A stretch of DNA of 64,000 nt from Asparagopsis taxiformis (taxonomy: Eukaryota; Rhodophyta; Florideophyceae; Bonnemaisoniales; Bonnemaisoniaceae), in assembly GCA_030407315.1 (NCBI GenBank), contig JALQPE010000238.1, positions 1 through 64,000 on the forward strand, written 5' to 3'. The stretch's first letter is position 1. The number at the start of each line of letters is the position of its first letter. Shown here piece by piece: positions 6,547-64,000 of this stretch. Position numbers and translations under genes: made by a program. The notes beneath the pieces were generated by a model, which saw only the letters and a program-made list of their open reading frames with translations, had not been told where the DNA came from and made no database searches.

Positions 6547-6549
6547 TCA

Positions 6550-11297: not shown

Positions 11298-11327
11298 GAT
11301 TACGAATTAGAATTGGGACAAGTTGAT

Positions 11328-25354: not shown

Positions 25355-25830
25355 CACTACGGTGTTGAGAATGAAAAAAGACAGTAAATTTACCGTCTGA
25401 GACAGTAAAAATTACTGTCTGGCCAAGACAGTGCGCGGAGACAGTAAAATTTACTGTCTGGAAATTTCAGAATACTGCTGCAGCAGTAAACTGGCACGAA
25501 ATCTGGACAGTACCAAAAACAGTAAAATTTACTGTCCAGAACAGTAAATTTTACTGTCCGGAAGTGTTGCCGCCAGACAGTATGTGCAGACAGTACAATT
25601 TACTGTCTGAGGCAATGCATTGTATTGTATTACTGCACTGTCTGGGGAAATCTGTAGACAGTAATGTAGATAGCAAATTGTATTGTCTGCGGGTAGTACC
25701 GTGCATTGGTTCACAACACTGTCTGGTGGAGTGGACTTGAGAGGAAATATGGAGCATAGTGTTGGTGTGAAGGTAAATATTGGAATGGTGTGTGGTATAC
25801 GACTATAGTAATTGTGATAGTAATTGTGAT
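25355..25830. repeat. CACTA terminus (end B) with subterminal repeats, left end of F1b
   Basis: CACTACGGTGTTG is followed by inverted GACAGTAAATTT/AAATTTACTGTC units to about 25720. It is the inverse of 15560–16013. Bases 25830–26270 then hold no gene and should contain the ORF1 promoter. Confidence 0.8.
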
Positions 25831-26270
25831 GGTGCTTTACAGATAGTTGGGTGCAGGGAAGCTAGATGTTGAATAGGACGTAGAATGAAAGATTGGGAGA
25901 ACAGAACATATCTGGTTTGTCTCACCGTAAGGAGAGAATGTACAGAGTAGCTATATTATGTTGAGTTTAGCATTTGAAATTATACCCATCTATCTTTGAA
26001 TTGAAAGTGTCGAGTAGGAGACGTCAGTCTGGTAGCGAGGTGTGGTATGTACAGGACGTGGGTGGTGGCAAAGGAAAGAATACGCACCATCCACCACTAA
26101 ATTATGAAAAATAACCGTTACGGAGCACTGGGAAGCATTATTATTATGTAGAGTAGAACAGGATGGATGCATCTACTGGAATGATATTTGCTACAACACT
26201 GCTGTGCTAAGCGTGACATCCTTCCTTCAAAGCAATTCTCCTTTTAGCAAACTCTAATTGCAAGGTCAAG

Positions 26271-27773
26271 ATGAATCCCGAAACCTCCGTAAGCATCGCC
26301 GCATTTTCCGAAATAACGCGTGAGGGCTTTTCGAACATCACTGCAGAGCTGAAAGCCCTAAGTGATAAAATAGATGCCGTCGAGAAGAGCACCATTCAAT
26401 TACGCGAGACTCTCGGAAATGTCGCCAAGACTGTCTCCATGCTAAACACCGATATGCAGGAGGTCAAGAGCATCGTCGATGGGCTTCTGAGCCAGGGACA
26501 AGGACATCTGAAGAAGATCGCCTCCGAGAAGGACAGGGAACGTCTCCGCATTGCGCAGGATGCGGAGAAATCGTTCACGTTCGAAATGTTGTGTGCTGTG
26601 CTGTGTGCTGTTGTTCCAACGTACACGAAGGCAATGGTGGATAAGAGGGATAGGCATTTCAACGGATGCCAGCTAATCAATACGCTGATGTTCGCCAGGC
26701 AGAGCAATGAGCGAAAGGATGTGTTCAATAGGACGCTTGCCGGCCGGAACCACATTGAATTGCGCTGCCGAGTTGTGACCTCTTTAATCAAGAATACTTG
26801 TGAAAACAATTCTTTCAGACAGGGAGGAGACCGTTCCAGCTCCAATGGAACGTCGGAAGGTATCGAACGGTGGAGGGCGCGGGGGTATGTGACTACCGGG
26901 ACCATTGAGGAGACAATTCGCGGAACGGACTCTGCTCGCATGGATGGAATGCATGGGACGTCCGAGGGAAGTGATGGGGCCGCTCGAAAGCAGAAGCGAA
27001 GAAAGGTTGGTGACAATGGGCCGTTGCACAGAAAGGAGGTAGGCATCACTGTGACGAAATCGGCACTCACGGCAGTGACCGGGTTTATGAACAAGTCCAG
27101 AGATCATGTGCGAAACCGGTTCATCCGAGATCTTGGATTCGTTCTATACAGTGGGTTTCAAGGTTCAGTCCGCATGGAGCAGCATCATTTGCACGACGGT
27201 GGGCTGGACATTGAGTCAGTTCCAAGTCTGTACTCGGCGCAGAGGAAAATGAATGCAGCGGAGCGCGCAGCAATGGATGACAAGAATATGAAGATTCTTC
27301 GCGACTTCATTGCGTTGCGAAAAGAAATGGTATTCAAAGTCGAGTACGAAGTTCAAATAATTGGAGAACCGGACAAGAGGTTTTTGACTAGGAGGATCAA
27401 TTTAGTAGAGGTTGCAATGAACTTTGCAGTCGCCTACACGCAATGTTCTGATAAGAACATGTTCCTGCGACGTTCAGAATACTCCTTGCAATTCATCTAC
27501 ATACTTGCATACGGGTTCCGAACGATTTTGAAATTTCAAAGTGGAGCAGAGGTGGAAGGAGCGCAAATCCGGGAAATCAATGAAGCAGTGAAACTGCTTC
27601 TTCCCGGGGAGCGTGTGAGTAGTCGGTTCATGAATGAGGAGGTTTTGACTATATCGCGTGATAGATATGAAGAACTGAATGTAGACGATGGGGGAATCAG
27701 TGCTGGAGGAGAGCTTCAGGTCTATGGAAGAGGACGGAGGAGATGCAGAATATGTGAAGGTATTCGTCGATGA
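26271..27773 (+). CDS. CACTA accessory protein ORF1 (coiled-coil, 500 aa)
   Basis: An intact frame begins with ATG in GTCAAGATGAATCCC. Residues 1–85 are predicted-looking coiled coil (FSNITAELKALSDKIDAVEK). A conserved block follows at about 90–190 (EKDRERLRIAQDAEKSFTFE; MFARQSNERKDVFNRT). A basic patch (RKQKRRKVGDNGPLHRKE, about 235–255) could be a nuclear signal. The C-terminal half is helical with a conserved DDKNMKILRDFIALRKEMV and an acidic, glycine-rich tail. A homologue at 46040–47563 has the same position and direction in F2, next to the same kind of terminus. No database family is recognised. The location suggests a TnpA-like end-binding or regulatory protein, which is inference. Confidence 0.75.
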   Translation: MNPETSVSIAAFSEITREGFSNITAELKALSDKIDAVEKSTIQLRETLGNVAKTVSMLNTDMQEVKSIVDGLLSQGQGHLKKIASEKDRERLRIAQDAEKSFTFEMLCAVLCAVVPTYTKAMVDKRDRHFNGCQLINTLMFARQSNERKDVFNRTLAGRNHIELRCRVVTSLIKNTCENNSFRQGGDRSSSNGTSEGIERWRARGYVTTGTIEETIRGTDSARMDGMHGTSEGSDGAARKQKRRKVGDNGPLHRKEVGITVTKSALTAVTGFMNKSRDHVRNRFIRDLGFVLYSGFQGSVRMEQHHLHDGGLDIESVPSLYSAQRKMNAAERAAMDDKNMKILRDFIALRKEMVFKVEYEVQIIGEPDKRFLTRRINLVEVAMNFAVAYTQCSDKNMFLRRSEYSLQFIYILAYGFRTILKFQSGAEVEGAQIREINEAVKLLLPGERVSSRFMNEEVLTISRDRYEELNVDDGGISAGGELQVYGRGRRRCRICEGIRR

Positions 27774-28073: not shown

Positions 28074-29435
28074 TCATTTTTGCTCCGGACTGCAGGTGGC
28101 AGGTGAAGGAGAGGGTGGGTGGGTAGTGTCTGAATCCGCATTGAAGCCAAGACGAGAGATAGCCTCATAGCCAATGTCTTCAAGCTCCTGGCATGTAGTA
28201 GTACCACTGAAAATACAGCAAGGTAAGCGTAGATGTAGTGTACCAAACGTCTCTGCGGTTGATAGAAGCTGGAAAGTGCTGTAACAAGCTCGGCGCTGAA
28301 TACGTCTCCACAGTAACGAAAACGTTGCTCCATAGGTAACAGTAGCCTTATCACGTAGGTGGAAAGAGTCCACGATGCTAGACTGTGATAGTTGGCTAAG
28401 ACATAGGGGATGTAAAAATGTATTGTTGACGTGGTCAAACTCGTAGGAGTCTCTGCAAAGAACTGTCATACGTTGGTCTCGGCTGGACAGGACGTAAGCA
28501 GATGAGCCGACGAGAAATGCGGAAGAAGGAGCATCATGAGAGCAATCAACGTCGACTAGATTTCCTAAAATTCGGACAATCGATGAGCTGCCTCCATCGC
28601 GTTCCGCCCTGCTCTTCACCAATATTTTCTGGAACCCGTGTTGCGAGGTACCTATGGAGTCACATAGTGCCTGAAAGGTGGGGAAAATGATGGAAAGATC
28701 CGACTCATTTCCAGAGGGAAAGGTGATGTCCTCAAAGGACGGCTGGAAGAGAACGTCACGATTCTCTTTCGCCTTGCATTGAATGGCAATAGTGCGGAAT
28801 TGAGCAAGGGAGCAGTCAGCCTGTACTCTGATTTCTTCTTGCGATGTTTGTCGCATTCCCCTGGAGTGCTCGGATTTTGTCATCCGGAGGGAGAGGGGCT
28901 TGTCTGTGTACACACCAAGCTTCTGAAACAGAATGCTACATACAGTCAGAGCAGAGGAGGTCATGGAGCTGTTGGAATCGAATGGAGGGGGAAGAGGATG
29001 TTTGGCAGCTGACTCCAGCTTTTCCAATCTTGCCAGCATTTCTGCTATGGTCTTCTTCATTTGATCCGCAGTGCAATCTTGAAGGATGCCGCGGTGGCGG
29101 TGGCGAGTGTGGTCAATGCCGTAGTCCGGGTCTCTCTCTGCTGGGGATGCAGGTGAGTCCATACTGCGAAGCTCACCACTTCGCCACGGGAGAACCCTTC
29201 CGGAATCCTTGTCGACGAGCTCGTTACGATCTGAAATCTTGACTTGAGAAAGGGTAGAGTCGAAACCATATTCAGCTTTGTATTCGAGCAATGCATGGAG
29301 GAATGGGTCTGTTTCAGTCTTGACCTGAGTAATTTCCTTGACGATTGCAGACCACCAGACAATTTTTCGTTTCCTCCCAAACGGCCGAAGTTCCCATTGA
29401 ACTTCTATAACGTCGTTTGGAGCGAGAGGAAGCAT
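28074..29435 (-). CDS. CACTA accessory protein ORF2 (453 aa)
   Basis: An intact minus-strand frame starts at ATG 29435. The first ~90 residues (NDVIEVQWELRPFG…IVWWSAIVKEI…VLPWRSGE) look like a small beta-barrel of the Tudor/Agenet kind. They resemble the N-terminus of the Sel1-repeat protein in F1a (VEVLWP…NSWWKACVLEI…LKWR). A helical segment near 115–130 (MKKTIAEMLARLEKLESA) and an unrecognised C-terminal domain follow (FHLRDKATVTYGATFSLLWR; LRLPCCIFSGTTTCQELEDI). A decayed homologue of the C-terminus lies at 48065–48290 in F2. If the Tudor reading is right it may bind modified histones or DNA; this is inference. Confidence 0.6.
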   Translation of the reverse strand: MLPLAPNDVIEVQWELRPFGRKRKIVWWSAIVKEITQVKTETDPFLHALLEYKAEYGFDSTLSQVKISDRNELVDKDSGRVLPWRSGELRSMDSPASPAERDPDYGIDHTRHRHRGILQDCTADQMKKTIAEMLARLEKLESAAKHPLPPPFDSNSSMTSSALTVCSILFQKLGVYTDKPLSLRMTKSEHSRGMRQTSQEEIRVQADCSLAQFRTIAIQCKAKENRDVLFQPSFEDITFPSGNESDLSIIFPTFQALCDSIGTSQHGFQKILVKSRAERDGGSSSIVRILGNLVDVDCSHDAPSSAFLVGSSAYVLSSRDQRMTVLCRDSYEFDHVNNTFLHPLCLSQLSQSSIVDSFHLRDKATVTYGATFSLLWRRIQRRACYSTFQLLSTAETFGTLHLRLPCCIFSGTTTCQELEDIGYEAISRLGFNADSDTTHPPSPSPATCSPEQK

Positions 29436-29948: not shown

Positions 29949-32756
29949 ATGGAAGGAACGTTCCACAATCACGGTGAAAAGCACGACGGATGGGTGTTCA
30001 TCGACCCCAATCAAGTCAGCAAATTCGTATCGATTCGCGATGTTGATGCAAGTCATGTGGAAGCGCTCATGGAGAGCATTCGCAACAGCGGTTATGACAC
30101 AGCTCATCCCGTGACTGGCAGGTTTCGAGAAGGCGTTCTGGAGATATTGGATGGAGCGCACCGCTGCATGGCAATTGTACGTGGAATGGAGAAGGGCGTC
30201 TTTCCTCCTGGCGTTACGATTCCTATGCGAGAAGAGTCTATCGTGGCGGACACCAACAGCAGTACTGCTGTTGTGCTGGACCGTGTGAGAGCGACGACAT
30301 CCAACGACATTGCAGGCCTGCAAAGGCGCATGATGTTTGTTGAGTATCTGATGATCGCCGTTGATCTCAGAGACGAGTACTGGGTCCAAAACGGAAAGGA
30401 CAAGTACGCTCACATTTCGTCTGTGAGGATGGCTGATGTGTTGGGCTGGATCAAATCCTGCGATCCAAGCGGCCAAATTGCTTCAAGCCTGAGTGGTAAA
30501 CCGCAGTACAGCTCATGCATGTCTATTCTGGCTGTGCTTCGGCCGTATCACCGAGCAGAAGATTCGAGTGCGATTGATTTGCGTCTGTGGCAAATGTTTT
30601 GTCATGCATGGGGACTCAATGCAGAGATGGGTGATTCTCCGAGGATGGTTGAGTTTCCGAAACAGGTGGGGGTGACTAGTTCTCGTGCCGTCGAAATGTT
30701 TGGCAAGACACCCCGCGGAGAATTGTCCTCTCCACTGAACCGCGAACTGCTTTCGAGCAGGTACTTTCTGGACGGCGCTACATCCGACATGCAAGATTCT
30801 TTGCAGGCTAACCAGAAGCGGTTCAGGAGGCTGATGGTTATGAAGTGCCAGTGTATCTTGGCTATTCGCAGTAAGGAGGTGGGCAGTGTGCCATCTAGGC
30901 GGGCCAGAGCCACATCCGGGGCCATTGGTGGTGGTGGAATGGTTGGAATTGCAACATCCAGTGCGCAATCCAACCAGCTTGGATTTGTTGTCGACCGTGT
31001 GTTAGCTGCGTGGGATACCGGGGCAAGAGTGTTGGGGTATGAGGATGTTGAATCGATGTGCTGGCCGTTCATGGTATTCGATCCTGCGAGCCTTTGCTTC
31101 AGGTCACTCCCGAATCGGTCTGATGGCTGTGCGGTCGAGGAGCATCGGAAAAACCTGACCATTGTCCCGAAAACTGTAGACAGTGAAAACGGGTTCTGTG
31201 CCGACCTTCCAGTGGCTGTGGATGCAAGGCTGCGATCATTGACAAGCGCCTTCCTGCTGTCGATACGCCAATGTGTCACTGAGGTGAATGTTTTCGCCGA
31301 GCGTGGTCAGCTGATGCAGAGACTTCGAGCCTTGCTTTTCGACACTCCTGACAAGTTCGGCTTGAACTCGTTCATGCGAGCCAAGTTGAACACGTCTCAT
31401 GCCCTGGATGGTCAGAGGAGGCTGAAGGCTTGGTTATTGCGAACCCGAGAGCAACGAAAGCTTCCTCTGACCATGGATGAGTTGCACAGTCTTGAGGATA
31501 CGCCCGAGCCTGGCATCCTTGAAGGTGCACCTGCGCAGATGGAAATATCCGCAGCAGTGCCAAACAATGGCAGCGAGGATATAGAAGAGGATAGTCTGGA
31601 GCCACAGAGGAAGAAGGCTAGGCTGGAGCGCGGTGGTGGAGAGGACGATAATGCGGCGGTTGCTAGCGAAACAGCAACAAGAGAAGGTGCGGCCGAGGAT
31701 GACGCTATGGATGACGCTATGGAAGTTGACACTGTATCGCCTACAGAAGCACCGCTCGTTGACGTCGGAAAGGAAACCAAGCCAGAATATGTCACCAAGC
31801 TGGAAGCTGTGATGGGGCGTTACATTCACACTGTGAATTGTGACGCCACTGATGTAGCCAAAGAGGTGGAGGACAAAATTAGTTTCCTGGAAGATGGCGT
31901 GTTGGAGGACAGTGTTCAGCTTGTGCTCACTGATCCTCCATTCAACACGAGGCGGGAAGGCGGCAGAGAAAACTCGGAGTACGATATTCTGGAGCCGGAA
32001 GAGTTGGCGAGTGTTGCGTGTGAAATAGTTCGAGTTCTTCGGCCTGGCGGCCATGCTCTGATCTATTCCAGCGTGCGCCAACTCGTGGCATGGATGGATG
32101 CAATCAGAAATGCCGAGCCTGGCAAGATGATTGTGGACAGTGTTCCAGTCGTGCTATCTCGCCGACCACACAGCTTTACGTCCAATCCATCGACGAAAAC
32201 GTGCACACTGCATAATATGCACGATTTCGTTATCCATGCGTATAAGCGGGGGAAGGGTATGGCTGCGTACGATATGGTGGATTACAGGTTGCACAATCCG
32301 GACATATCGAGGCACCCTGGGTTCACCAACGCGATTGACAACGTTCCGAGGTTGTCGGCTGGTGAAGCTCAATACGATGGGCAGAACAACCGACTGCGCC
32401 ATGAGCAGAAGGCGTTGACCACTCTTCGTGAGCTTCTGGAACGATTTTCGAAGCAGAACGATATCGTGATGGATTTCTTCTCGGGAACGTACAGCACAGC
32501 CATAGCGTGTATGACGTTGAGGGATGGTACGTATCGTCGGTTCATTGGGTGTGAGAAGGAAAAAAGGTGCCACGATGCATCGCAGGAGTGGATACTGCAT
32601 GCTTTCGTCAGTGAGGTGAAAGCCGGGCGATATGGGGGATCTTGCAGCGTGAGGTGGAGAGTATTCTTGGGGACGAGTCGGTACCGGTCACAGGAAAAGC
32701 TCCAAGGCTTCGTCAGAAGCACATCTCAGATGCACCAGAAGGATTCCCTGCTGTGA
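29949..32756 (+). CDS. ParB-like domain fused to DNA amino-methyltransferase
   Basis: The ATG at 29949 (CGCCATGGAAGG) gives 935 codons. Residues ~10–95 form a ParB/sulfiredoxin-like domain with DGAHRCMAIVRG at ~68, shared with the ParB parts at 36–38 and 41–43 kb. A helical region follows, then an acidic linker with a basic patch (RKKARLER). The C-terminal third is a DNA methyltransferase of the beta arrangement: catalytic motif IV LTDPPFNTRR at ~660 precedes the SAM motif DIVMDFFSGTYSTAIA at ~840. DPPF points to N6-adenine, with N4-cytosine possible. ParB–methylase pairs are typical of phages and bacteria, so a bacterial origin is likely. The frame ends just past the catalytic domain. One added G in the run at ~32633–32637 would continue it into the SET frame, suggesting a single ParB–methyltransferase–SET protein. 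Confidence 0.85.
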   Translation: MEGTFHNHGEKHDGWVFIDPNQVSKFVSIRDVDASHVEALMESIRNSGYDTAHPVTGRFREGVLEILDGAHRCMAIVRGMEKGVFPPGVTIPMREESIVADTNSSTAVVLDRVRATTSNDIAGLQRRMMFVEYLMIAVDLRDEYWVQNGKDKYAHISSVRMADVLGWIKSCDPSGQIASSLSGKPQYSSCMSILAVLRPYHRAEDSSAIDLRLWQMFCHAWGLNAEMGDSPRMVEFPKQVGVTSSRAVEMFGKTPRGELSSPLNRELLSSRYFLDGATSDMQDSLQANQKRFRRLMVMKCQCILAIRSKEVGSVPSRRARATSGAIGGGGMVGIATSSAQSNQLGFVVDRVLAAWDTGARVLGYEDVESMCWPFMVFDPASLCFRSLPNRSDGCAVEEHRKNLTIVPKTVDSENGFCADLPVAVDARLRSLTSAFLLSIRQCVTEVNVFAERGQLMQRLRALLFDTPDKFGLNSFMRAKLNTSHALDGQRRLKAWLLRTREQRKLPLTMDELHSLEDTPEPGILEGAPAQMEISAAVPNNGSEDIEEDSLEPQRKKARLERGGGEDDNAAVASETATREGAAEDDAMDDAMEVDTVSPTEAPLVDVGKETKPEYVTKLEAVMGRYIHTVNCDATDVAKEVEDKISFLEDGVLEDSVQLVLTDPPFNTRREGGRENSEYDILEPEELASVACEIVRVLRPGGHALIYSSVRQLVAWMDAIRNAEPGKMIVDSVPVVLSRRPHSFTSNPSTKTCTLHNMHDFVIHAYKRGKGMAAYDMVDYRLHNPDISRHPGFTNAIDNVPRLSAGEAQYDGQNNRLRHEQKALTTLRELLERFSKQNDIVMDFFSGTYSTAIACMTLRDGTYRRFIGCEKEKRCHDASQEWILHAFVSEVKAGRYGGSCSVRWRVFLGTSRYRSQEKLQGFVRSTSQMHQKDSLL

Positions 32757-33427
32757 CAGCATTGCCGAACCATCTGCTTGTGTTCGTTGCGTCAATGAAG
32801 AAGGACGGGTCTATGCTTCACAGATTGAGCGGGGTGCCTATGGACCAGTGGCCGGCCGAGGACATGCACTCGTTTTGGAGCATAGACCCGGACGCGATTC
32901 TGGCTGCCGATGCCGCATTCTACGGTGTCTATGTTTCGCAATCGGAGGTAAGAGGTGGTGGGTTTGGCGTATTCGCGGCGAAGAAACTGAAGAAGGGGAC
33001 GGTCATTGGCTGGTACAACGGGACGATTTTCTATGCGAAGATTCGAGACTCGGAACCGCAGAGATCAGTGATGTACGGCCCGGAAGGATTTGGGTGCACA
33101 GGAGAGAGGTTCCAGGACTACAACATGGAATTGGAAACCACGTACATAGGGAGGGGTGCACCTGTTCGGAAGGTTTGGCTCGTTCCAGCGGTCTATAATT
33201 GTACCAGCTACCTCAATGATTGTCGGGTCATTGACGGAACGGAGAAAGCGACCGAGGTGAGTCGAACACAGTCAGCCGAGTTTCGACAAGGCGATGCCAT
33301 AGACAAACCGGACTTTGCTTCAAATATCAAGAATCCCCATGCTGTCAAGGTCGTTCTGACCAGAGACGTTGAAGCTGATGAGGAGATATTTGCCGACTAT
33401 GGTAGAAAATATTGGCCAGCTAACTGA
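32642..33427 (+). CDS. SET-domain protein methyltransferase (probably C-terminus of the upstream gene)
   Basis: The frame overlaps the methyltransferase end by 115 bases and has no ATG near its start (it opens on TTG). It contains a complete SET fold: RGGGFGVFAAKKLKKGTVIG (the GxG substrate/SAM loop), YNCTSYLNDC, then NIKNPHAVKVVLTRDVEADE and EEIFADYGRKYW at the C-terminus. SET domains transfer methyl groups to lysines, usually of histones. The missing start, and the fact that one base in a poly-G run joins it to the preceding frame, argue that it is the last domain of a ParB–DNA-methyltransferase–SET fusion. The indel may be a sequencing error or true decay. Substrate cannot be told; no post-SET cysteines are visible. 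Confidence 0.8.
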   Translation: MQREVESILGDESVPVTGKAPRLRQKHISDAPEGFPAVTALPNHLLVFVASMKKDGSMLHRLSGVPMDQWPAEDMHSFWSIDPDAILAADAAFYGVYVSQSEVRGGGFGVFAAKKLKKGTVIGWYNGTIFYAKIRDSEPQRSVMYGPEGFGCTGERFQDYNMELETTYIGRGAPVRKVWLVPAVYNCTSYLNDCRVIDGTEKATEVSRTQSAEFRQGDAIDKPDFASNIKNPHAVKVVLTRDVEADEEIFADYGRKYWPAN

Positions 33428-34490
33428 GCTACTTTGATAGATTTGAGTAAACACGCATTGACAGAGACAATAGACTGTGCATCATCTTCCAAGAGCGCTA
33501 GATATTATAGACTACACTACAACAATCGTGACATGACTGCAGGAAGGCATCTGCGGCCTGGAGTGCAAACTATCCACTTTTCTACTGCTATACCTATGGA
33601 TACGAAAAGGAGAGAAACTAGAAAGATGTGAGTGCGAAATTGTGTAGCAACGCAGCATGTAGAACACCAGTAAGAGAGCGATGTAGGAGAAGCAGTCACC
33701 CCATTACAGTGCGGGCCGTTTACCGGGGATGCTGACAGCAAAGTCATCGTTACGATGACTTTGCTGTAAGAAAACAAATCATTACAGCAGCCATGATTTC
33801 TTTACCGGGTAAAAAATTGTGGCCGCTGTAATGAAACGTTTTCTTACAGCAAATCATTACAGCGGCCACAATTTTTTTACCCGGTAAAAATTCTTGCTGA
33901 TTTTTTACCCGGTAAAAAATTCTTTGGCCACTGCAAGGAAACGGTTCCTTACAGCAAAGTCATCGTAACGATGACTTTGCTGTAAGGAACCCTGGTAAAC
34001 GGCTTCGGCTGTAAGAAGCAGGGAGTTTCGTCCTTCTCCCATCTTGGTAAAGGAGAGAAGCGAAGTGTGAAGTCGGGAAAATTGCTCAGCAAAGGTCTGT
34101 ACGGCTGTGAGCAGCTCTCAGGAGTATTTTACCTCACGTGGTCTCTGTTCAGGGTATACCCTGTATATATATAGGTAGCCTAGTGTAGGTGGGAAGATAG
34201 ACGAAAATTCTACCAATAATTTATCACAGTGACGGCTCTCGTAGTCGAAATGTGCGCGTTGTCAAGGGTTGAAACTAGTCTCCCCCTACGGCCTAGCTAG
34301 TAAAATCATACAACGTTGTCGACTAATATTAAAAAGTAGCAAGCAATCTGCTGAGTAGCACTAAACTATGAGATGAAGGACAGATGTATAGATGAAAACC
34401 GAAAAGTGGGCTAAGATAACAATGTTGAGATGAGAAAGACAGAACTTTATAGCAGGGAACAGTAGTATAGGTTTTAATACTTCTGATATG
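33428..34490. repeat. Foldback element between the SET and dioxygenase genes
   Basis: Bases 33690–34260 hold a foldback element: palindromes TTACAGCAAAGTCATCG and TTTTTTACCCGGTAAAAA, and outer arms around CTTGGTAAAGGAGAG. Bases 34240–34490 are the 3' flank of the dioxygenase gene, conserved inverted at 4800–5070. No gene seen. Confidence 0.65.
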
Positions 34491-51462: not shown

Positions 51463-51473
51463 CTAAACGAATT

Positions 51474-54610: not shown

Positions 54611-54619
54611 AAGCATCGG

Positions 54620-56875
54620 AGAAGTAAGACTCGCTGCGTGAACTCCTGGTAACCAGGTACAAGGATTTTATCAGTGCTGCAGAAAAGGTGTACTCCATGT
54701 GTGAAGCAAGTTCACTTCCTGTCTGCGATTCTCTCCGCAATATGGCCAGATCCGCCTCAGAAATTCGAGAGACGTTTTTATCTGAAGGCTACATAGGTTC
54801 TCCTCTATAGAGGAGAGCAGTTATACCCACAACCGATGATCTTGAGGGCGAGAAAACTGTTCACGCGGTTTGATGCACTCTTAAACAAATTTTTGATACC
54901 CCGGAGGTACTCTATGCAAATTTAGAGGCAGACTATATCTACTGCGTCGCTGAACGATATTCTCTCGCTGCAGATAATTATCGTAAACTCACTAATACAG
55001 AAGTAATTGAATGCATTGCAAGTCTATTTGCAGAATGTAGGTGGAAACAAGTTGAAGTCGTTTTGGCGGCCTCTTCGAATCGCTCACTCGCAAAGTTGGA
55101 TAGCATAGCAGTTGTAAGCGACAAGAGTAGCATTCTAGTGTTTCAATCCTTCGGTTTGTGATAGTTTGCTTTATTCAAATATATTCTACGGGACATTTGC
55201 GCAACATGGTGGGAAGTGGCTCTTGCAATGGTACAGGACAGAGATGCATTCTTGGACAGGGTCGTCCGGAAGCTAATCGATGCCATTCCAGGCAGTGAAC
55301 TGGGAATTCACACTTTAGGAAATCGGCTGCATTCATTCAACTCGATCAATGGCATGATACAATCTGAACTCAAGGCACTACAAAAGGCGCGAATGTGACT
55401 TTCAAACACGTGTTTGAGAGTGTACACTCTTTAGCCTTCCTGGATCTGTTTAACCTTCTGCGGCAGACGTGGTGGAATCAGGTCTTTGTTCAAAGTGCCG
55501 TGAAAATGGTACTGGGCCAACATGCAAACATTACCGTTCTGAATACTGCAGTATCCATGGTTCAGTAACCATGGTTCACCGAAGTGGAAAGGCGAATGCA
55601 TTCATTGAGGGAGAATGAAAATTATGAGATAATTGAGCTAGATGAGAACGGTGAGATTAATGAAAGCGAGGAACGGGAAGAAGAACGGGTCCGCAACATA
55701 ACGCAAGTATACAGTTTCAAGGAGCAGTACAAACGATTTTGCTGCTGCTGGCTTCGATTATTCCCAAGTTTGGAAGTCCAGGTGTCCAAAATGGCATGGA
55801 AGAATGGCTCGCCGACTTCAACCAATTGAAGAAGGAGCACGGTTGTGCCAAGGAGGTGTTTGAAGCCGAGCGTACATTATTGGCTAGAATGGACGAAGTG
55901 AACATGTCTTCGAAGAGAAGTACGCTCCTGGACGGAGACGAAGATACGATGCGCCTGACATAATATGACCTACTACATCATTTCACCCTATCAACCCTAC
56001 CTGCGCGCAATTTCGAGTTCTCCAACGGCAAAGCGGTAGCAGAAGTAGATTTTGGAGCCAAACGAGGAATTCTGGTTTACCTGTGATCACTACAGAAAGC
56101 GGCAAAGGGATCTGAAGGCGAATCGGCCAAAGTGGTGATGAGTGCTGAGATAAGGCATTGTGCTGTTTGTATGGCCGAGTTTAATATGGAACAGATGCGA
56201 ACTACGTTGTTTGTGTGTGGTCATGCATTTTGGTGCGACTGCACATTAATGATGATTAAGAAACAGGAGTTGCGAACGAGAGTACAGAGCATTGCTTGTA
56301 CGACGTGTCGTGTACGTTGCCCTGTAGATGAAATTAGTTTTACTGTTCCTGGTGGACTTGGAAAAAGGAAAGGTCATGGTAGTGGGCTGCCGCCGTCACC
56401 CGGTTCACAAGAAGAGGAAGACATAGACGCTTTGATCTCGCCAAGTCGAAAACGACAAAAGGCGGAGACGACTAGCGGTGAACGGAAGTCAATTTTTTAT
56501 GACAGCAAAGCTGCGGTGCGCGGCTTTGTTGGAGCTAAAGCAAGTCCTATTATCCGATTGCTGCGCGGCATATGGCAAGTGGACGCTACGCGGAAAGTTA
56601 CGGTATTCTCCGAGTGGCAAAGCGTGCTGCAAATGATCTCGACAGCACTCGAAACGAACGGTATCACGCATTTGAATGGGGCGCTTGAGAAAGGTCCTAT
56701 GGTGTTTGCGAAGATGGTGGACAAGTTCAAATCAAGCATAGATTTCAACGTTCTTTTACTACCTCTGCATCGTGCAGGTGCTGGTCTCAATCTTACAGAA
56801 GCGAGTCATGTGGTGTTGGTGGAGCCGAGTATGAATATATCTTTGGAAGCGCAGGCTGGAAGAGACGAGTCTTGC
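54620..56875 (+). pseudogene. SHPRH/IRC20-type RING–SNF2 protein, C-terminal half, broken
   Basis: SHPRH-type proteins are SNF2 ATPases with an inserted RING finger that ubiquitinate PCNA or clear stalled complexes. The most intact frame (56132–56878) carries the RING (CAVCMAEF…CGHAFWCDC…CTTCRVRCPVDE). It is followed by the helicase C-domain (KASPIIRLLRGI; KVTVFSEWQSVLQMISTALE; VLLLPLHRAGAGLNLTEASH; VVLVEPSMNISLEAQAGR). It stops just where the conserved HRIGQ box should come, so the last helicase motif is lost at the join with satellite DNA at ~56880. Upstream, 54620–56130 holds degenerate helical pieces (FLDRVVRKLIDAIPGSELG; INGMIQSELKALQKAR; EEWLADFNQLKKEHG) that fit the region between the two helicase lobes. 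The ATP-binding lobe is absent. Confidence 0.75.
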
Positions 56876-56904
56876 TAGGCATAGTGTAGCTGGGATCGTC
56901 CTGA

Positions 56905-57260
56905 GTCTGGTGAAAATAATACCGGGTATAGTTCCTGGGATCCAATGTCCAGGTGCAATGCACTCATTGGTCGGCAGAGCTGGCTGCTGTGCCGCCAATC
57001 AGTGCACTGCACCTGGTTTGGTGATTTGAAAATAATACCGGGTATAGTTTCTGGGTTTCAATGTCCAGGTGTAGTGCGCTTATTGGCCACACCGCAACCA
57101 TCTCATCCCGCCGATGATTGCAATGCACCTGGTTTGGCTAAGTGAAAGTAACCTAATACCGGGTATAGTTCCTGGGTTCCGATGGACAGGTGCACTGCGC
57201 TCATTGGTATGCTAGGCTGGCTGCTGTGCCGCTAATGAGTGTACTACACCTGATTTGGTG
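56905..57260. repeat. Palindromic satellite, diverged units
   Basis: Three units with AAAATAATACCGGGTATAGT, TCCAGGTGCA…CACTCATTGG and TGCACTGCACCTGGTTTGG. They form a separate subfamily of the same repeat. The first unit marks the point where the SHPRH fragment ends. Confidence 0.7.
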
Positions 57261-59255
57261 TTTGGAGAAGTAATTGTTATTTTTGGGTTCCTATGACTAG
57301 CTGCATACAGCAGGTCATTTGCTGATAGCTGATCTCTTTGTTGTCAAAAAAATCTAAGCGCATGCATGTATGTTCTCGTATTGCGCTTGCGCAGAGTATC
57401 ATCTCCACAGTCGCAGGCAGCACAATACTATGCGGGTAATGAGTCGAAAACCCGTAGAAACGAACAGAGCCAAAGCTATGATCCCATCTCTGTCGGCCAT
57501 GATTATAGGTCTCAAATGAAACGATATTCATTCTGTCGATTTTCTACAAAGATAAAACAGAAGAATTTGTTTTATTTTATCTCTCTTTCGCACCATGGTG
57601 ATTTTGAAACAGCACAGCCTTGCAGTAGTGTCACTGTTTGGTCAGGCCACTAATTTGAAGGAGAGAGCACTTTCTCGCGCTACAATAGCGTTGAGATTCA
57701 TTCTCCAGGGAGTATGAACGCTGCTATTCATCAAAGATGGACAATTTTTCCTCTAAATTCACAACTGTTCTCAATTGCACTTAGTACGCAGTCATCTCAA
57801 AACCGTCACTTCCCGCATTCACAATAGGTCATTTTGGTTTGTTGAACTAATTGCTAGTCTCCAAGGGATCACTAGGCAGACCGCCAAAGCCCACCTCGCA
57901 GCTCCCACCAATAGTGCACGGATTATTGACTATCAGCTACAACTAACTATTACTGTTTTATATCTCTTTAACCTTCAATGACTACAACTGCGCGCAATCC
58001 GACGCACTTTCTCAAATTTCAGCTTCCCCACACGCACTCAAGACTGCCGGACCTTCTTTATAGCTTCCAGCGCTGTTTCCGCAACAAGTTTCGCCGACAC
58101 AACGAGAGTTGAAATTGAGTTACTGTTAAGATTGTTCAATACCTCCCTATAATTCAACCACATTCTGCACGCGGACGGAATCTTTTCGATTCAGTATTGA
58201 ATACACAGTGCGATCAAAATTGCTCAAATTCTGTTTCTTCTTCGGTATACGCCTGGGCATCAGCACCAAGAATTTTAGGTTGGTTTTAAGGGGCCTGATT
58301 TCAATTACTGTTAATTTCCCGCGTCCAGAAAATTTGACAGATCATCCGCTGCCAAATCATCTGCCACATCATCGTCTGCCAAATCATCTGCCTTCCAGTT
58401 ACGACGAGTTCATCATGGGTGGATGAGCTGTCTATTTAAGGCTGTTGATGCGCGACGTATAGGACCATTTCATCATCCGGGTATCATGAAGATGACAGGT
58501 AAGGCTGGTATGTTGTCGTAGAGGTATCTTTCCCCTTCCTCTTTTCTTTCCACATGTTTTCCATGGAAGATAGTGCACTAACCATGAGTATCGTTCTTCG
58601 CTGATCCTATTGTAGTCTATTGATTGGAAATGCTTCTGGCATAGGTATTGCTTGCAGGGTGGAATGACGAAAGCTTGCAAGCTTTCATCATTCCAACCTA
58701 CAACCAATACCTTTGCTTGCAAAAATAGTTCAATGATGGTAAGTTTGTTCATTCCATTCATACTCATGTTCTTCTCATCCTTTACAATACTTTTCTATAT
58801 CCGATTGCTAACCTGTTGCAAATCATCTGTAATGGTGTTTATTTCCATCCTGTCTGAACATCGCATGTAGTTTTGAAACAGCAAGGAACTCGATTTGCTT
58901 GCACAATAGTCCTGGATGTAGAGATAGTAAGATTTTAGATACGATAGTTCGATTTGATGAGTAGTCTAGTCTAATGATAGATCTATCATGCCTGAAGGAA
59001 TGTTTCAGTTCGAACTGAAACATTCCCTCAGGCATCTTTGTCCTTGCTACATAAAAATTCTGACATCCTTTTAGATCACACTTGGTTATCCCTATACATT
59101 TCTATGAAGACCACCGAGAGAGATACTCCATTCTGCCCGACATTTCGTAGCCAGATGCCTGAACATGCGGCTGGAATGGCATTTCCACCTCATTCTATCG
59201 TCCTGAACATCAATTGTAGGCACTAGAAAGTATTACCCTAGGCATCATATTCTAC
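57261..59255. other. Spacer with no assigned gene
   Basis: Mostly AT-rich. A minus-strand stretch at ~58030–58170 reads VVELYREVLNNLNSNSISTL and SAKLVAETALEAIKKVRQS, which looks coding but is unassigned. Snap-back palindromes lie at 58644–58713 and 58990–59033. Confidence 0.35.
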
Positions 59256-60444
59256 TACTTTCCCGTTCTGCCCGAGTCAGTACCGCCAGGCACTACAATT
59301 TACTGGTTCAGTATAGACTTCCCGGCAGTAAATTGTACTGTCTCAAGCACTAGTTCCAGGTAGTGAAATGTACTGCCACAGGTAGCACTTCCAGGTAGTA
59401 CACTGCACTGCCACAGGCAGTAACTGGTACTGTCCTATGCCCCTGTCGAGTACCACACTATCAGACAGTACTTTACGCTGATCTGGACAGCTCTATAATA
59501 CATCAAAATCTACTACTTTTTGTAGTGCTGTGGGGCAGCAATTCACATATCCTGGAGCAGTACAGCGTGGCAGTGATTTACACATACGCAAGTAGTAGAG
59601 CACGGCAGCACTTTCCACCACGGCAAGTAGCACGGTACGGTAGCACTTTTCGTATCATAAAGCAGTACTACCAGGCAGCTTTTCCCAGAGACTATCAGCA
59701 CCTCATTTCATTGCTTTCACACATTTCGTCAGACATCATAATTTACTGTCCCCACTCGCTTCCACAGGCAGTAGAATACACAGCCTCGAAGCATGTCTGC
59801 TGTCATCATATTCCACTGCATTACTCTACTGCCAGAACATAGACTTGTCACTACCTGTAAGTACAAAAAAAGCAGCACCACACAGCAGCAGAAATTACTG
59901 CTTTGTCCAATAATAGAATACAGTACATTTCTCTGCCTCTGCCATGACTTGCAGGCAGTATCATACAGTACATCGGGGCACTACCTAAATATAGCAAAAT
60001 GTGCTGCCGTCATTCGGGCCCGCAGCCAGCACAGCACGCTGCCGGAAACACTAGCTTCTACTGCCACACGGTGCATCCCACGCCACCAAATAGTACTGCC
60101 GTGGGCCATATTCCTGGACAGCATATTTTACTCCCTCCCCGTGCTGCCCAAGTCAGCACAATATACTACTTTATTTTACAGGCCAATGTAGCACAAATCA
60201 CTGCCAGAAAGACAATCTAAATCCAGCAACTATCACTGCCTCCCACCACTGCCTCACGTCATACATCCAGGCAGTACTTTCTACTGCCGTCGGCAGCACA
60301 TGGCCACTGCCTCCGGGCAGTGCACTGTACTGCCGGCAAGTAGGGCATTAATTTATATTTTTACAGTACTAAATTTTACTGCCTCAGGCAGTAAATTTTA
60401 CTGCCGTACAGTACTGCCCCAGCCCGATTTCAGACACAGTAGTG
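59256..60444. repeat. F2 end A with long subterminal repeat array
   Basis: Many short GGCAGTA/TACTGCC, GTACTGCC and CAGGCAGT motifs are scattered over 1.2 kb, ending in TACTGCCCCAGCCCGATTTC and ACACAGTAGTG. The G/C-rich last 30 bases parallel end A of F1. Frames here are repeat translations. Confidence 0.75.
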
Positions 60445-62810
60445 AACTTCTTCAGAGCGCCCAGATTTTGCAATTCAGCTACCTCTCGAATTCGTGGGCT
60501 GGCAGCTGAAATACAAGCGTTCAGTACATCTTGTGCCAGTCCAGACAATAGATGGTCAGGTGCTATCACTGCGGAACGGTACGGGTCAAAAATTGCTGGG
60601 ACAACTGAAACTCCGTTTTCCGTCTTCGGTACTTCTTCCTCCACTGCTTCCAAGGAAGTGCTCAGGACATGAAATGGTAAATCTTCCCCTTCTTCTGCAG
60701 CCAGTCCGAGAGTGCGAAGCTGGGTTTCTGTGGCATCCTTACGTGTCGATGCATTCCGATACTTGCTCCTGGCATGCGTCGATGTTTGCCCGTTCACTAC
60801 CGAAGTGTATGCATTCTTCGTGCCACCAGTACTGCTCAGGTCATATTTGCGGAAACTGCAGATGTGGCACGGAGAGTTTGATGTGTGTCCAAGAACATCC
60901 AGGGTATGTGAAACTGCAGGATAGTCTCCAATGCTCCCCACTGGGTCTAGAAATACCACAACATCTTCTCCCTCTGCATTTTTCGTTGGGAAACCCTCTG
61001 TGCTTCCCCGCACTATATCTTGAACGATATATCGCAATACAAAATTTTTGGACACTCCCGGAGGTGGCAAACCAATCACTCGAACCGCTTGGTAGCTTCC
61101 CCTTTTCCGAGGCGGTAGATTGAGAGGTAACATATAGCATCCACCAAAACTTCCCTTCCTGCTTGTGAATGGTTCAAAGTCATCCGTGTAAAGGATAAAT
61201 CGGTAAACAAAGTAGTTTCGACCATCCTCCAGCTTTCCCCAACATGGTGCATCTTCTCGCGGAGACGCTGGGTGCCATTGCGACCTGTGGTCTCCGAAAC
61301 CATCCGAGAACACCCCTGAAACACGAATTTCTTCATAGTTGGGGCTTCCTAGTCTATCGGGCGGGTTTCTGGCTTCAGCAAAGCTCGCGCCCGGTGAAAA
61401 GCAAAGTAACATGGTGGATGCTTCTCCGACCTGCTCTTTCAAATACCTGTTCACCAATACGACGTGTGGAACAATATCACCCTCTTCCATTCCAATTGGT
61501 AATAGAATGGTTATCACGTCCCCAGCTCGTGTTCCTTTTCCCTTGGCTCCTGCTCCGATTACACATTGCGATATCGCTCGCAGAGCGTGCTGCCTCTCCC
61601 ATTCCAATAGATGTGACATTCGCGGCTGCAGATATTTTTCGACATGCACATCATGCTCACCGTCGTGTCGAGCCTCATAGGTAACTATGGTCCTAGCATG
61701 AAGTTCCCACAACGACGTAACCGCCACTCTTCTCCTCTTCAGTTTCTCACCATCTCTGTCATTCTTCCTGAACCCTTTTGCTCTTTCGATGACGGCAACC
61801 TGACGAGCTCCTGGATGACATCGGATTCGAATTGCTGTTCCATCAGGTACATAAATGTGCTTCAAACCCTTTTTCCCATCGCTGTCAATGGGAACAACTG
61901 CTGTGCGAACGAATGGGTCGCTCAAAACACCCCTCCTGCACTTTGCAATGAACGAATCTTCAATGCTGCACTCTGCGGTTGATTTTTCTCCTTCCGAGCT
62001 TCGATTGTTCGCATCACTGCGGAATGCTTTAAAGATTGGTCGAGTCTGGACATCTTTCAGAGCCCATGTGCTTGGGAGTACAATACGAACTTTCGCCATT
62101 CCTCCACAATTGTCTCTGTCATCTGTTGTTCCTCGGGTTCCTACTGCACCTCGATGCTGTGCAGCTCTTGCTCCGCTCTTTCGAAGGTCTATCGGAAACT
62201 CGATGTCACAGCTCTTTGCATAGCAGTGTTTCCTCAAGAATGGTAGTATCTTCTGTCGCATCACAGAGTCCGACGGGACATGCTCACTTGGATCTCTGCG
62301 GAAATTCATTCCGAACAGGGTACCTTCATAGTGGGCTCTTGTCATTCTTCGAGTTCCACTCAGCTGGAGAGCCCCATACATCGCAGGCCATTGTAGTAAT
62401 GCCTTGAAATCACCACATGCTTCATCCCCAGCATTTCGGTCTATCGGGCCTCCAGTTGAAATGGAATCAGAACCTCGTCCGGTTGCTTCTTCCGATTCCA
62501 TTAGCGTGCTCGATGCTACGTAGATGTCGCTTCCAGCTTCATCGTTGTTGCTGTACACATCAATACAACCTTCTATTGTGTCACCCATAGGGATTGGGGA
62601 CTCCAATAGGTCATCTGTGGTACACTCACGTCGTAGCTCATTACCTCTCGGGATTTCTTTGTTCATGCAGGCTGCATCACTGCTGCGGATTTCTCCCTGC
62701 AGTTTCCCAGGAAGCTGTTTACTAGGACTGGCCACATTGAGTGAATCGAATCTCGCCTTTGTCCTACGACTTGTGGTTTTCTTTCGAATAGGAGTCCGTC
62801 TCGGAGCCAT
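60445..62810 (-). pseudogene. CACTA (Plavaka/EnSpm-type) transposase, N-terminal part (separated by F2)
   Basis: ATG at 62810 starts a basic N-terminus (MAPRRTPIRKKTTSRRTKAR) that suits DNA or nuclear targeting. The RNase H-like core shows LYTDDFEPFTSRKGSFGG at ~542 (first catalytic Asp), LPLNLPPRKRG, VIGLPPPG, VVVFLDPVGSIGDYPAV at ~628 (second Asp in the DxPA position) and the zinc-knuckle-like CHICS at ~648. These match CACTA/Plavaka transposases, which cut element ends and join them to new sites. The native sequence reaches LQNLGALKKF. The last residues of the open frame (TTVSEIGLGQYCTAVKFTA) come from the F2 terminus. The rest of the gene is at 43908–45344, in frame, giving an original protein of about 1,270 residues. 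Confidence 0.85.
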
Positions 62811-62913
62811 CTTGATGTTTTTGTTCTTTTCTTCTTCGCTCAGTTTTGTTGCATAGAATACAACTCTAAACTTCTACGACATGACTACTATCTCAATACA
62901 GTACTACTACTTT
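62811..62913 (-). promoter_or_regulatory. Transposase leader region
   Basis: About 100 AT-rich bases between the transposase ATG and the end-A arm. Transcription must start here or inside the arm; no specific element is recognised. Confidence 0.35.
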
Positions 62914-64000
62914 TAACCGTTACGAAACCTTTCCAGGCTTTCATTCGATCCAATGAACTGGTTCACCACAATGCTTTGCCCTATGCTCATTGCTTTATGC
63001 ACATTGATTGCTATTTCATCCGGACTCAACATCGTTTTGCTATCTTGTATCGCATTCCCTAACCACAAACCCAGCCAAGATGTATCCATTTCCGGAAAAC
63101 GGCCGTTTATTTCGCAGTGATGCTCTAGGCACTATAGTGCCAGAAAATCAGATTCAGTATTATAATACTGAATCTGATTTTCTCATACATGTACTTCCTA
63201 CTCGTATACTCTACCACATTTTCGGCCCTATTTACAATTTGAAAGCACAATCTCTCGTTTAATCGTACTCGGTGTGATATCTGAAATTAGCATAAATTTA
63301 TATATTGCAATGCAGATTCACTGCTCGCTTGCAACATGAAAATTATAAAATTTCTCCCACACTGCTGTTTCCTAGCCGCCCACATCCACGTGGCCCGCTT
63401 TGACTGCCTGCCAAGTGTGCTCAGAGCATGCAATGACGTCATCGATATATACCGTCCAAATCATCACTGGAAGCGCGGACTCCTCGTCCAGGAAAGTGCG
63501 CCATTTTTCCTACTCCTCGCCTCACCCTTTTCTTTAGGCCCCATATGCTAGTGTTTTTCCTATATTTCTGTAGTGATGACGTCATTATAGACTAGAGAAG
63601 GCGATAGAAGATACAATAATTTTGCGCCTGTTCTGCCAGGTCATGTGCTTCAAAGCGTAATTCGCACCCTAGGTATCGTTTTTCTGGGCCTCCCATCGCA
63701 CCGCTCCGTTTCAAATTCATCCCTCTATTGTTCTCCTACACGTCATTTCCGCCCGCAGAGTGCTACTTAAACGACAGATTCTGGAAATCCCTGTTTCCAT
63801 CTTCATATCCGTCGGAGACAAAGCAACAACTTGTGCTGTGGAAGCAGTATAGATCATCTATACTGCTTCCAAAGCGTAAGCTGTAGATCATCAATACTGC
63901 TTCCAAAGCAAAATTTGTTGCTTTGTCTCCGACGGATATGAACCATGATGGTACGTTTCCACAACTCACGCCACTAACCCAGTTTTCTATTTGTTTTCTC
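62914..64000 (+). repeat. End-A arm, right copy (continues past window)
   Basis: Inverted copy of 1381–2427; the match holds to the last base of the window. A snap-back insertion at 63150–63186 (AATCAGATTCAGTATTATAA mirrored) is absent from the left copy. The element terminus is expected further right. Confidence 0.8.
63802..63942. repeat. Hairpin inside the end-A arm, right copy
   Basis: TTCATATCCGTCGGAGACAA plus AGCAACAA is mirrored by TTGTTGCTTTGTCTCC plus GACGGATATGAA, with inner inverted CTTTGGAAGCAGTAT units. It is the better preserved copy of 1441–1580. F1b is inserted in the third copy right after CCGTC. Confidence 0.7.

Follow-up and report, generated by a model that had tools for sequence, protein, structure and literature searches.

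The window, a 64-kb stretch of contig C238 (105,928 bp) in the 141.5-Mb genome of the red alga Asparagopsis taxiformis (Rhodophyta, as given in the DNA heading), contains a copy of a CACTA/EnSpm-type DNA transposon family that was recently amplified and measures about 25 kb per copy. This copy is defective, carrying a nested insert and broken frames. As a whole, we put at roughly 0.5 the probability that the locus is best explained as a defective copy of a family whose enzymes would write and erase marks at places addressed by ParB-like domains and a palindrome. The features are collected in Table 1.

Table 1. Features of the window (strand "." where none applies; contig and window coordinates coincide up to 64000)
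Feature	Position	Strand	Basis
Deletion-derivative element	5..16013	+	A-ends at 5 and 6488, GG-type B-end at 16013
Left flank, piece of a further A-end arm	25021..25354	-	98.5% to 63478-63813
Giant CACTA element	25355-65453 (contig coordinates); 25355..64000 in window	.	Termini and contig tail
B-end terminus and subterminal region, CACTACGGTGTTGAGAATG...	25355..25816	+	Inverted repeat with 15552-16013, 97%
ORF1, about 500 aa, adjoining the B-end in copies examined	26271..27773	+	22/22 copies, 898-916 bp from B-end
453-aa ORF between ORF1 and methyltransferase gene	28074..29435	-	ORF list
Putative ParB-like/N6_N4 DNA methyltransferase/SET gene	29949..33427	+	Pfam; frame change near 32633 here
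Palindrome array, 2 sites, where the SET and dioxygenase-2 ends converge	33733..33985	.	Sequence comparison
Putative ParB-like/dioxygenase-like gene 2, broken here	34491..37900 (5' limit approximate)	-	HxD...H...R motif
Palindrome array, 3 sites	38372..38635	.	Sequence comparison
Palindrome array, 2 sites	39238..39413	.	Sequence comparison
Putative ParB-like/dioxygenase-like gene 1, broken here	39665..42776	-	ORF list, copies, P0002
Palindrome array, 2 sites, before transposase 3' end	43536..43786	.	Sequence comparison
Transposase, C-terminal part, truncated by nested insert	43908..45344	-	Alignment to other copies
Nested element of second CACTA family, foreign to the described element	45345..60444	.	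15,100 bp, TSD AA
Transposase, N-terminal part	60445..62810	-	1288-aa open frame in many other copies
A-end arm, running on to A-end terminus 65453 beyond window	62906..64000	-	86-89% match to 5-2438

The motif CACTACGGTG stands at both ends of the window element, as in CACTA-type inverted termini; it occurs as a terminus four times in the window versus 0.05 expected, and 1018 + 996 times genome-wide versus 107 + 118 for the reversed control. The A-end and B-end are asymmetric, yet CACTACGGTGTTG is common to both, and the motifs ACAGTAAA...TTTACTGT, read from the sequence, are repeated beside the termini. Exact A-ends number 892 in the genome (controls 0) and exact B-end 19-mers 767 (control 0). 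The sequence-only reading had placed a B-end terminus at 25355 and an A-end arm near 62914-64000; both were confirmed, with the start of the arm now set at 62906, and the right terminus, sought beyond 64000 in the contig tail, was located at 65453. The element spans 40,099 bp, or 24,997 bp after subtraction of the nested element and one AA, and four both-ended copies elsewhere in the genome measure 24,495-27,188 bp. Since the nested element inflates the window copy, 40 kb was ruled out as a natural element size, and the 38.6 kb read earlier gave way to about 25 kb in the same manner. CACTA/EnSpm elements are typified by a 3-bp target-site duplication. This was found in 0 of 10 other elements, and a 2-bp duplication in 4 of 10 (P = 0.002), the other six being without a match; across the wider CMCT clade, the part of PMC12730594 available gives 2-5 bp. 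The window copy shows no matching 2- or 3-bp duplication at its two ends and its left flank copies an A-arm, so a clean insertion is not what this locus represents.

The nested insertion interrupts the transposase gene and has an AA target duplication. Its ends, CACTACTGAG/CACTACTGTG, differ from those of the surrounding element, and 444 exact ends of its type occur genome-wide (control 0). The uninterrupted insertion site was read directly in one other copy and is implied by alignments in three more. Two ORFs, one at 46007-47563 (a paralogue of ORF1, 39% identity) and one at 56132 (a RING/helicase-C remnant), were dropped as genes of the described element because both lie in the nested one. 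Compared to open-frame copies, the window copy also bears three lesions: the frame shifts by 1 nt between methyltransferase and SET, 83 nt are missing from ParB-like/dioxygenase-like gene 1, and gene 2 has 11 extra nucleotides.

From the A-end, the gene order is transposase, ParB-like/dioxygenase-like genes 1 and 2, the convergent ParB-like/N6_N4 methyltransferase/SET gene, and then ORF1 near the B-end. All of these had been listed in the sequence-only reading, and the methyltransferase and SET matches, the two ParB-like/dioxygenase-like genes and the transposase-like gene were borne out. Of 49 scored copies of the methyltransferase-SET gene, 33 read through as a single frame of 1185-1187 aa, and Pfam profile searches matched N6_N4_Mtase (PF01555, 1.7e-16, above the cut-off) and SET (PF00856, 3.4e-7, 31.1 bits versus a curated cut-off of 22.4). 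The sole public match to this gene, P0001 (1155 aa, 99% identical), has methyltransferase and SET fused, and the DPPY/F motif is present as DPPF in P0001 and three other methyltransferase copies. P0001 matched phage methyltransferases at 20% coverage only, a search of viral contigs with six of its peptide patterns confirmed no relative, and a PDB sequence search with SET gave nothing usable. The 1288-aa transposase-like frame had no match in Pfam, NCBIfam or PDB; by eye, it contains PCHIC with C-x2-C and, later, an E-x2-H stretch. A family search with the 453-aa ORF found no match, and ORF1 carries no family assignment.

Gene-end spacing strongly supports the view that the modification genes are part of the CACTA element and did not merely ride along in a single copy; the support is weaker for dioxygenase 1. 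In fully listed contigs, ORF1 keeps its distance from the B-end in all copies (n = 22, window copy included), and with the window copy excluded the transposase lies 2504-2714 bp from an A-end in 11 of 12 copies, the methyltransferase 4573-4578 bp from a B-end in 3 of 3, dioxygenase 2 8.6-10.9 kb from a B-end in 14 of 19, and dioxygenase 1 at the expected distance from an end in 10 of 18. The remainder (8, 5 and 1 copies for dioxygenase 1, dioxygenase 2 and transposase, respectively) have no exact end at the expected distance, some of them owing to contig ends. The methyltransferase gene was also present in all three further copies probed. The search for more copies with the same gene order returned fixed gene-end distances in most checkable copies, besides the four both-ended ones. 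Near-identical copies scored numbered at least 49 (methyltransferase), 124 (dioxygenase 1), 113 (dioxygenase 2) and 56 (transposase). CACTA elements often carry host fragments, and the left derivative contains Sel1-repeat ORFs, as would fit captured, Pack-CACTA-like cargo with no function for the element. We rejected this reading as highly improbable on the fixed positions in most checked copies, the long open frames kept in many copies, and low pN/pS for each of the four genes, namely 0.14 for the methyltransferase (20 copies), 0.21 for dioxygenase 1, 0.28 for dioxygenase 2 and 0.31 for the transposase (8 copies each), values in which pN is biased downward because the copies were the top protein-score matches. 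The retention of two diverged dioxygenase paralogues also argues against it.

The dioxygenase-like genes reach open frames of 1078-1087 aa in many copies (gene 1) and up to 1257-1267 aa in other copies (gene 2). HTD, YH and R are conserved between the two, in a pattern HxD...H...R which we take to be the 2-oxoglutarate/Fe(II) dioxygenase motif (double-stranded beta helix). The putative dioxygenase assignment is a purely motif-based one: the domain had no relevant match in Pfam, PDB or NCBIfam, the PDB sequence search returning one line, an unrelated RNA polymerase subunit (E = 1.1), and its predicted structure has a pLDDT of 30. No TET/JBP profile was among the Pfam matches of these proteins, so that membership in TET/JBP was rejected. 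The window ORF had no protein match at E<=0.001 among 7,997 candidates, and the longer frame of gene 1 had a sole public match, P0002 (1086 aa, 99% identical). In these protein searches, which scored only candidates sharing most words with the query, dioxygenase and methyltransferase proteins each gave one 99% public match and no relative from another organism. All three ParB-like genes contain DG(S/A)HR, presumably a ParB/Srx-type motif. The putative ParB-like call is drawn from weak profile matches to phrog_1033 (0.0019 and 0.023; 0.003 with P0001, absent with full-length P0002). The region had no Pfam match, sulfiredoxins scored E = 0.2 against it, and its predicted structure has a pLDDT of 42.

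A 37-bp palindrome stands in arrays within the element spacers, its sites often grouped two to four with 110-140-bp spacing. Exact 33-bp cores of the palindrome occur 8,326 times genome-wide (control 0). The contig holds 22 palindromes, 13 in the left derivative and nine in the giant element; the nested element, the host tail and the retrotransposon have none. Among the matches listed, contigs of known length hold 33 palindromes, of which 28 are found inward of an element end, a region that makes up 18.8% of the sequence; overall, 42 of 49 among the matches listed are so placed, and for the other seven no exact end has them on its inner side within 17 kb. Core identity was 96.6% versus 64.5% for gapped flanks and 48.2% for random pairs over 18 sites, which were picked for <=4 mismatches to the palindrome, so that the core value is raised by construction. 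We propose the palindrome as the candidate address of the ParB-like domains. In the window copy the arrays lie close to gene 3' ends, as expected if they were terminators, hairpin insulators or the remains of small palindromic repeats, unrelated to ParB-like domains, with the enzymes acting without an address. We consider this unlikely, given that the core is conserved above its flanks in the 18 chosen sites, that grouping by two to four at 110-140 bp exceeds what a terminator needs, and that no palindrome lies in the nested CACTA element, in whose ORF list no ParB-type gene was seen (by eye; two ORFs scanned).

ParB binds a palindromic address site, bacterial parS being shorter than 37 bp. 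By analogy, the ParB-like domain common to the three modifying proteins may bind the palindromes as parS-like sites and so load these proteins onto the element. Once there, the methyltransferase would place 6mA or 4mC in the DNA of the element and the SET domain would methylate a chromatin protein, histone or other, while the dioxygenases would remove or alter such a mark. By writing and erasing its own chromatin state, the element could stay expressed and/or time its transposition. We tentatively suggest, from sequence, a transposon with its own addressing: three ParB-like proteins would read the 37-bp palindrome and bring the methyltransferase-SET and two dioxygenases to it, writing and erasing a private DNA and chromatin mark on the element and its deletion derivatives, much as if parS-ParB had become an epigenetic self-label. 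We rate this reading as somewhat less likely than not. In plant CACTA elements, TnpA-type proteins cluster or synapse DNA at the subterminal repeats, and Dam methylation times some bacterial transposons. Palindromes and ParB-like domains may likewise form a transposition or DNA-architecture system that clusters or synapses element DNA, with methylation timing the reaction and silencing uninvolved. The left derivative has kept its palindromes, as for a cis site, despite losing most genes, and its inner A-end 6488 has two palindromes less than 0.5 kb away. In the full element, however, over 6 kb separate the palindromes from each end (nested element subtracted), so that they are not subterminal, and a SET domain is unexpected in purely DNA-level timing; we regard such a system as somewhat unlikely.

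It is quite improbable that the dioxygenases oxidise host-placed 5-methylcytosine that silences the element, as a TET/JBP-like escape would have it. Such an escape has been proposed for fungal EnSpm, Plavaka and KDZ elements, and TET/JBP genes do occur on EnSpm and other fungal transposons, according to the part of PMC12730594 available, but the proteins here lack a TET/JBP profile match. Moreover, the genome search for a C5-cytosine methyltransferase gave 0 candidates, a search that was positive in 10 of 14 control genomes (the positives being prokaryotic) and that an intron-split gene could escape. This makes TET-style removal of 5mC unlikely, and 5mC removal as the purpose of the set was not supported. 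If the palindrome is the ParB-like address, the self-labelling element would represent a sequence-directed write-and-erase system for marks on DNA and chromatin, one of transposon origin, in a host without a C5-cytosine methyltransferase match. The role of transposon-borne modification enzymes would then be open to direct test, since every base of the proposed target site is known and the site is present thousands of times; the system would also supply a targeting domain whose long site is defined.

Several known systems resemble parts of this set. Giant EnSpm elements with several accessory genes have reportedly been described in red algae, in work on Bostrychia moritziana by Petroll et al. 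2025 (as cited in PMC12477816). They share with the present element the superfamily, probably the host group, the large size and the several accessory genes, and that work may already cover much of the present finding. As far as the available part of PMC12477816 goes, red algal transposons have been reported to encode proteins of ParB-methyltransferase-like type, and Sola1-1_Ec32 of Ectocarpus, also a giant algal DNA transposon, encodes a 1104-aa protein in which a ParB-like domain is joined to an N4-N6 methyltransferase. Different from the present element, Sola1-1_Ec32 is from the Sola-1 superfamily and has one such gene, with SET or dioxygenase unmentioned in that part. The fungal EnSpm, Plavaka and KDZ elements carry TET/JBP dioxygenases thought to act on 5mC (PMC12730594, part available), and the likeness is that of a DNA-modifying dioxygenase, here putative, on a CACTA-like transposon. 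Unlike them, the present element has no TET/JBP match, joins a ParB-like domain to the dioxygenase-like protein, and resides in a host without a C5-methyltransferase match. The proteins also resemble bacterial and phage ParB-type methyltransferases, through the weak ParB-like match and a methyltransferase match to phage families. A ParB would bind a palindromic site, which also recalls parS-ParB partition systems. Unlike these, the present system belongs to a eukaryotic transposon, includes a SET fusion and has a palindrome longer than bacterial parS. In the open-licence literature, we found no ParB-dioxygenase or methyltransferase-SET genes described on transposons, and we claim no novelty over Petroll et al. 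2025 or pmid 21507349. The novelty that the sequence-only reading had seen in a ParB-coupled modification set on a CACTA element is partial: the SET fusion, the paired dioxygenases and the palindrome arrays look like a novel variation, whereas giant EnSpm elements of red algae were already reported, as were ParB-methyltransferases carried by algal transposons.

Copies that miss most of the genes do exist, as elements of about 14.6 kb with the same end type, but the example within the window seems to be a deletion derivative. That a deleted copy keeps the A-end arm together with a ParB-dioxygenase remnant was borne out in the 5-6488 copy: the left derivative holds the A-arm, a remnant of dioxygenase 2 and its palindromes. 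Such derivatives, with ends and palindromes, could use the modifying proteins in trans. The B-end of the left derivative abuts a Ty3-type pol gene, and its Sel1-repeat ORFs are a further feature of this copy.

On contig C238 (105,928 bp, in a genome assembly of 141.5 Mb and 3,156 contigs), whose initial 64,000 bases make up the window, the terminal motif CACTACGGTG was found at 5(+), 6488(+), 16013(-), 25355(+) and 65453(-). Two types of terminus were distinguished: transposase-side A-ends, starting CACTACGGTGTTGAAAAGGGGGC, at 5, 6488 and 65453, and ORF1-side B-ends, starting CACTACGGTGTTG(G/A)GAATG, at 16013 and 25355. Since the motifs at 25355 and 65453 are of type B and type A, the element spans 25355-65453 (40,099 bp); the right terminus, expected beyond 64000 by the sequence-only reading, was located when the remaining sequence of C238 was fetched. 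Exact A-ends (460+432) and B-ends (364+403) were abundant genome-wide, and the reversed patterns gave no match. The tail of C238 beyond the window carries one gene of Myb type and one of RNase II type. A profile search for the phycobilisome linker family PF00427 gave 13 matches in the genome, three of them within one 892-aa frame; among the control genomes, it matched in a cyanobacterium only. This points most probably to a red alga, with glaucophytes and cryptophytes as the alternatives among eukaryotes.

Target duplications of 2-5 bp are described for the wider group (PMC12730594). No 2- or 3-bp duplication was found between the two flanks of the window copy, and its left flank (25021-25354) is an A-end arm fragment of 98.5% identity, indicating that this locus is rearranged or was assembled across repeats. 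Five contigs (C4, C64, C116, C300 and C238) start only a few bases from an element end, a sign of assembly breaks at the CACTA repeat. Both flanks were fetched for ten further elements: the 2-bp flanks agree in four (gc on C74, aa on C117, ga on C104 and ag on C19) and differ in six (C44, C168, C221, C21, C101 and C174), and no element shows a 3-bp match; the probability of four or more 2-bp matches among ten by chance is 0.002.

Copies with both ends were found at C74:32666-57929 (25,264 bp; transposase, dioxygenases 1 and 2, methyltransferase probe match), C44:50859-78046 (27,188 bp; dioxygenase 2, ORF1), C168:2748-28895 (26,148 bp; dioxygenase 2, ORF1, methyltransferase probe match) and C221:27563-52057 (24,495 bp; dioxygenases 1 and 2), each checked for part of the gene set. 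The gene order is A-end, transposase, ParB-like/dioxygenase 1, ParB-like/dioxygenase 2, ParB-like/methyltransferase/SET, a 453-aa ORF, ORF1 and B-end, in which the two dioxygenase genes share a strand and the methyltransferase gene faces the opposite way. On contigs whose ends are all listed, an A-end lies 2504-2714 bp upstream of the transposase in 11 of 12 cases, and a B-end lies 898-916 bp from ORF1 in 22/22 (window copy counted), 4573-4578 bp upstream of the methyltransferase in 3/3 and 8579-10911 bp downstream of dioxygenase 2 in 14/19; three of the five misses have less than 9 kb of contig on the B-end side, the C54 copy has room, and the fifth miss is on C316. The sequence-only claim that the modification genes belong to the element and are not passengers of one copy is strongly supported, more weakly for dioxygenase 1, which had an end at the expected distance in 10 of 18 cases (A-end at 9.4-10.1 kb or B-end at 13.7-14.4 kb). 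For the transposase, ORF1 and dioxygenase 2, a single copy would match the spacing by chance with a probability below 1%, the copies being non-independent events. At the predicted methyltransferase site in C74, C116 and C168, the gene was present in all three, with 99.3% identity and an unbroken frame across the 301 bases read.

Counting the best-scoring candidates only, the genome holds at least 49 methyltransferase, 124 dioxygenase 1, 113 dioxygenase 2, 56 transposase and 86 ORF1 copies. The ParB/methyltransferase/SET gene is a single open frame of 1185-1187 aa in 33 of the 49 scored copies, with stops in four; single open frames of ~1078-1087 aa (dioxygenase 1), ~1257-1267 aa (dioxygenase 2) and 1288 aa (transposase) occur in many copies, and fused frames are seen in two public ENA proteins, P0001 (1155 aa) and P0002 (1086 aa). 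The corresponding genes of the window copy are damaged: methyltransferase/SET by a 1-nt frame change, dioxygenase 1 by the loss of 83 nt, dioxygenase 2 by 11 additional nt and the transposase by an interruption. Profile matches strongly support an N6_N4 methyltransferase and a SET domain. The ParB-like assignment is weak: phrog_1033 matched the region at 0.0019 and 0.023 and did not match full-length P0002, while sulfiredoxin, which belongs to the same superfamily as ParB, matched at 0.2. The putative dioxygenases are assigned by motif only, HTD, YH and R being kept in both paralogues (41% identical). The transposase had no match in the profile search; C-x2-C and E-x2-H stretches were spotted by eye.

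Mean pN/pS was 0.14 for the methyltransferase (20 fetched copies, 19 distinct), 0.21 for dioxygenase 1 (8, 5 distinct), 0.28 for dioxygenase 2 (8, all distinct) and 0.31 for the transposase (8, 4 distinct), the window copy included in each, at mean DNA identities of 99.1-99.6%. Copies were picked by protein score rank, which biases pN downward; the figures therefore speak for purifying selection on the four genes without proving it.

A 37-bp palindrome, TTACAGCAAAGTCATCGT-N-ACGATGACTTTGCTGTAA, has 22 sites on C238 at ≤8 mismatches (18 at ≤4): 13 in the left derivative, a deletion-derivative element, and nine in spacers of the 25355-65453 element; the nested element, the retrotransposon and the 40-kb host tail have none. 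Core identity among the 18 sites is 96.6%, versus 64.5% for gapped 40-bp flanks and 48.2% for random pairs, a contrast partly built in by selecting sites for core likeness; repeat families found without such selection show a similar contrast by eye. The core thus appears to be held constant while its surroundings drift, like a protein-binding site. Arrays were present in six fetched loci covering these spacers (C1573, C24, C545 and C325); four fetched transposase loci ending outside the spacer had no palindromes. The inner 33 bp has 8,326 exact genome matches (reversed control, 0). Among the listed sites, 42 of 49 lie inward of an element end, within 17 kb, as do 28 of 33 on contigs of known length, where 18.8% of sequence qualifies. 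A second short palindrome, TTTTTTACC...GGTAAAAAA, occurs among the 37-bp sites.

Repeat arrays and additional reading frames in and near the element (positions on C238)
Feature	Coordinates	Remark
Palindrome arrays in element spacers	33733-33985, 38372-38635, 39238-39413, 43536-43786	mismatch search of C238
Palindrome arrays overall	5230-9924, 33733-43786	often ~110-140-bp spacing
~35-bp tandem repeats	359-745	immediately inside A-end at 5
Matching stretch	64646-65050	inside A-end at 65453
118-bp tandem repeats, nested element	49115-49623, 53604-54610	matches in both orientations
Sel1-repeat ORFs, left derivative	11857-13363	possibly a captured host gene
Ty3-type pol ORF	16014-19560	adjoins B-end at 16013; reverse transcriptase, RNase H, integrase, weak chromodomain match

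Three proteins of one element share the N-terminal ParB-like domain, joined to DNA methyltransferase and SET or to dioxygenase. The palindrome co-occurs with the ParB-like genes, is conserved and abundant, and is absent from the other CACTA element on C238. On the simplest reading, the ParB-like domain would be an address reader and the palindrome its address; we infer that the two bind, as well as which base would be modified, what the SET domain and the dioxygenases would act on, and how the element would benefit. No C5-methyltransferase candidate was found in the genome by a search positive in 10 of 14 control genomes, all positives being prokaryotes; this search reads exons unjoined, and a fragmented eukaryotic gene could escape it. 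Given this lack of a match, an N-methyl mark made by the element itself, or a protein, seems a likelier substrate for the dioxygenases than host 5mC.

A ParB-methyltransferase on a brown-algal Sola-1 element and giant EnSpm elements in red algae are known (PMC12477816), features of the same kinds as those here; fungal EnSpm and other elements carry TET/JBP (PMC12730594), and the part of PMC12695648 covered mentions no red alga, Rhodophyt or ParB. We have not seen the SET fusion, the paired ParB-dioxygenases or the palindrome arrays described in the literature compared, which dealt with transposon-borne ParB, methyltransferase, SET and dioxygenase domains.

The transposase gene, uninterrupted in other copies, is split in the window copy at 45344/60445 by a 15,100-bp insert (45345-60444) that starts CACTACTGAG and finishes CACAGTAGTG. 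It is flanked on both sides by AA, where one uninterrupted copy has a single AA. The end pattern of this second CACTA family has 218+226 = 444 exact genome matches (control, 0); end pairs with the 15.1-kb spacing also occur on C59, C181, C212 and C511, the remaining pairs being spaced otherwise. The family encodes an ORF1 paralogue (39% identity), and the element contains a RING/helicase-C remnant.

The left derivative (5-16013) belongs to a type of ~14.5-16 kb in which two outward ends follow one another in tandem at 6.3-6.5 kb and a single B-end completes the element. This type recurs on C4, C21, C101, C116, C121 and C228, which would fit the amplification, as a unit, of a composite that has alternative ends; on C4, C21, C101 and C116, the inner end has no exact match to the 23-base A-end pattern.
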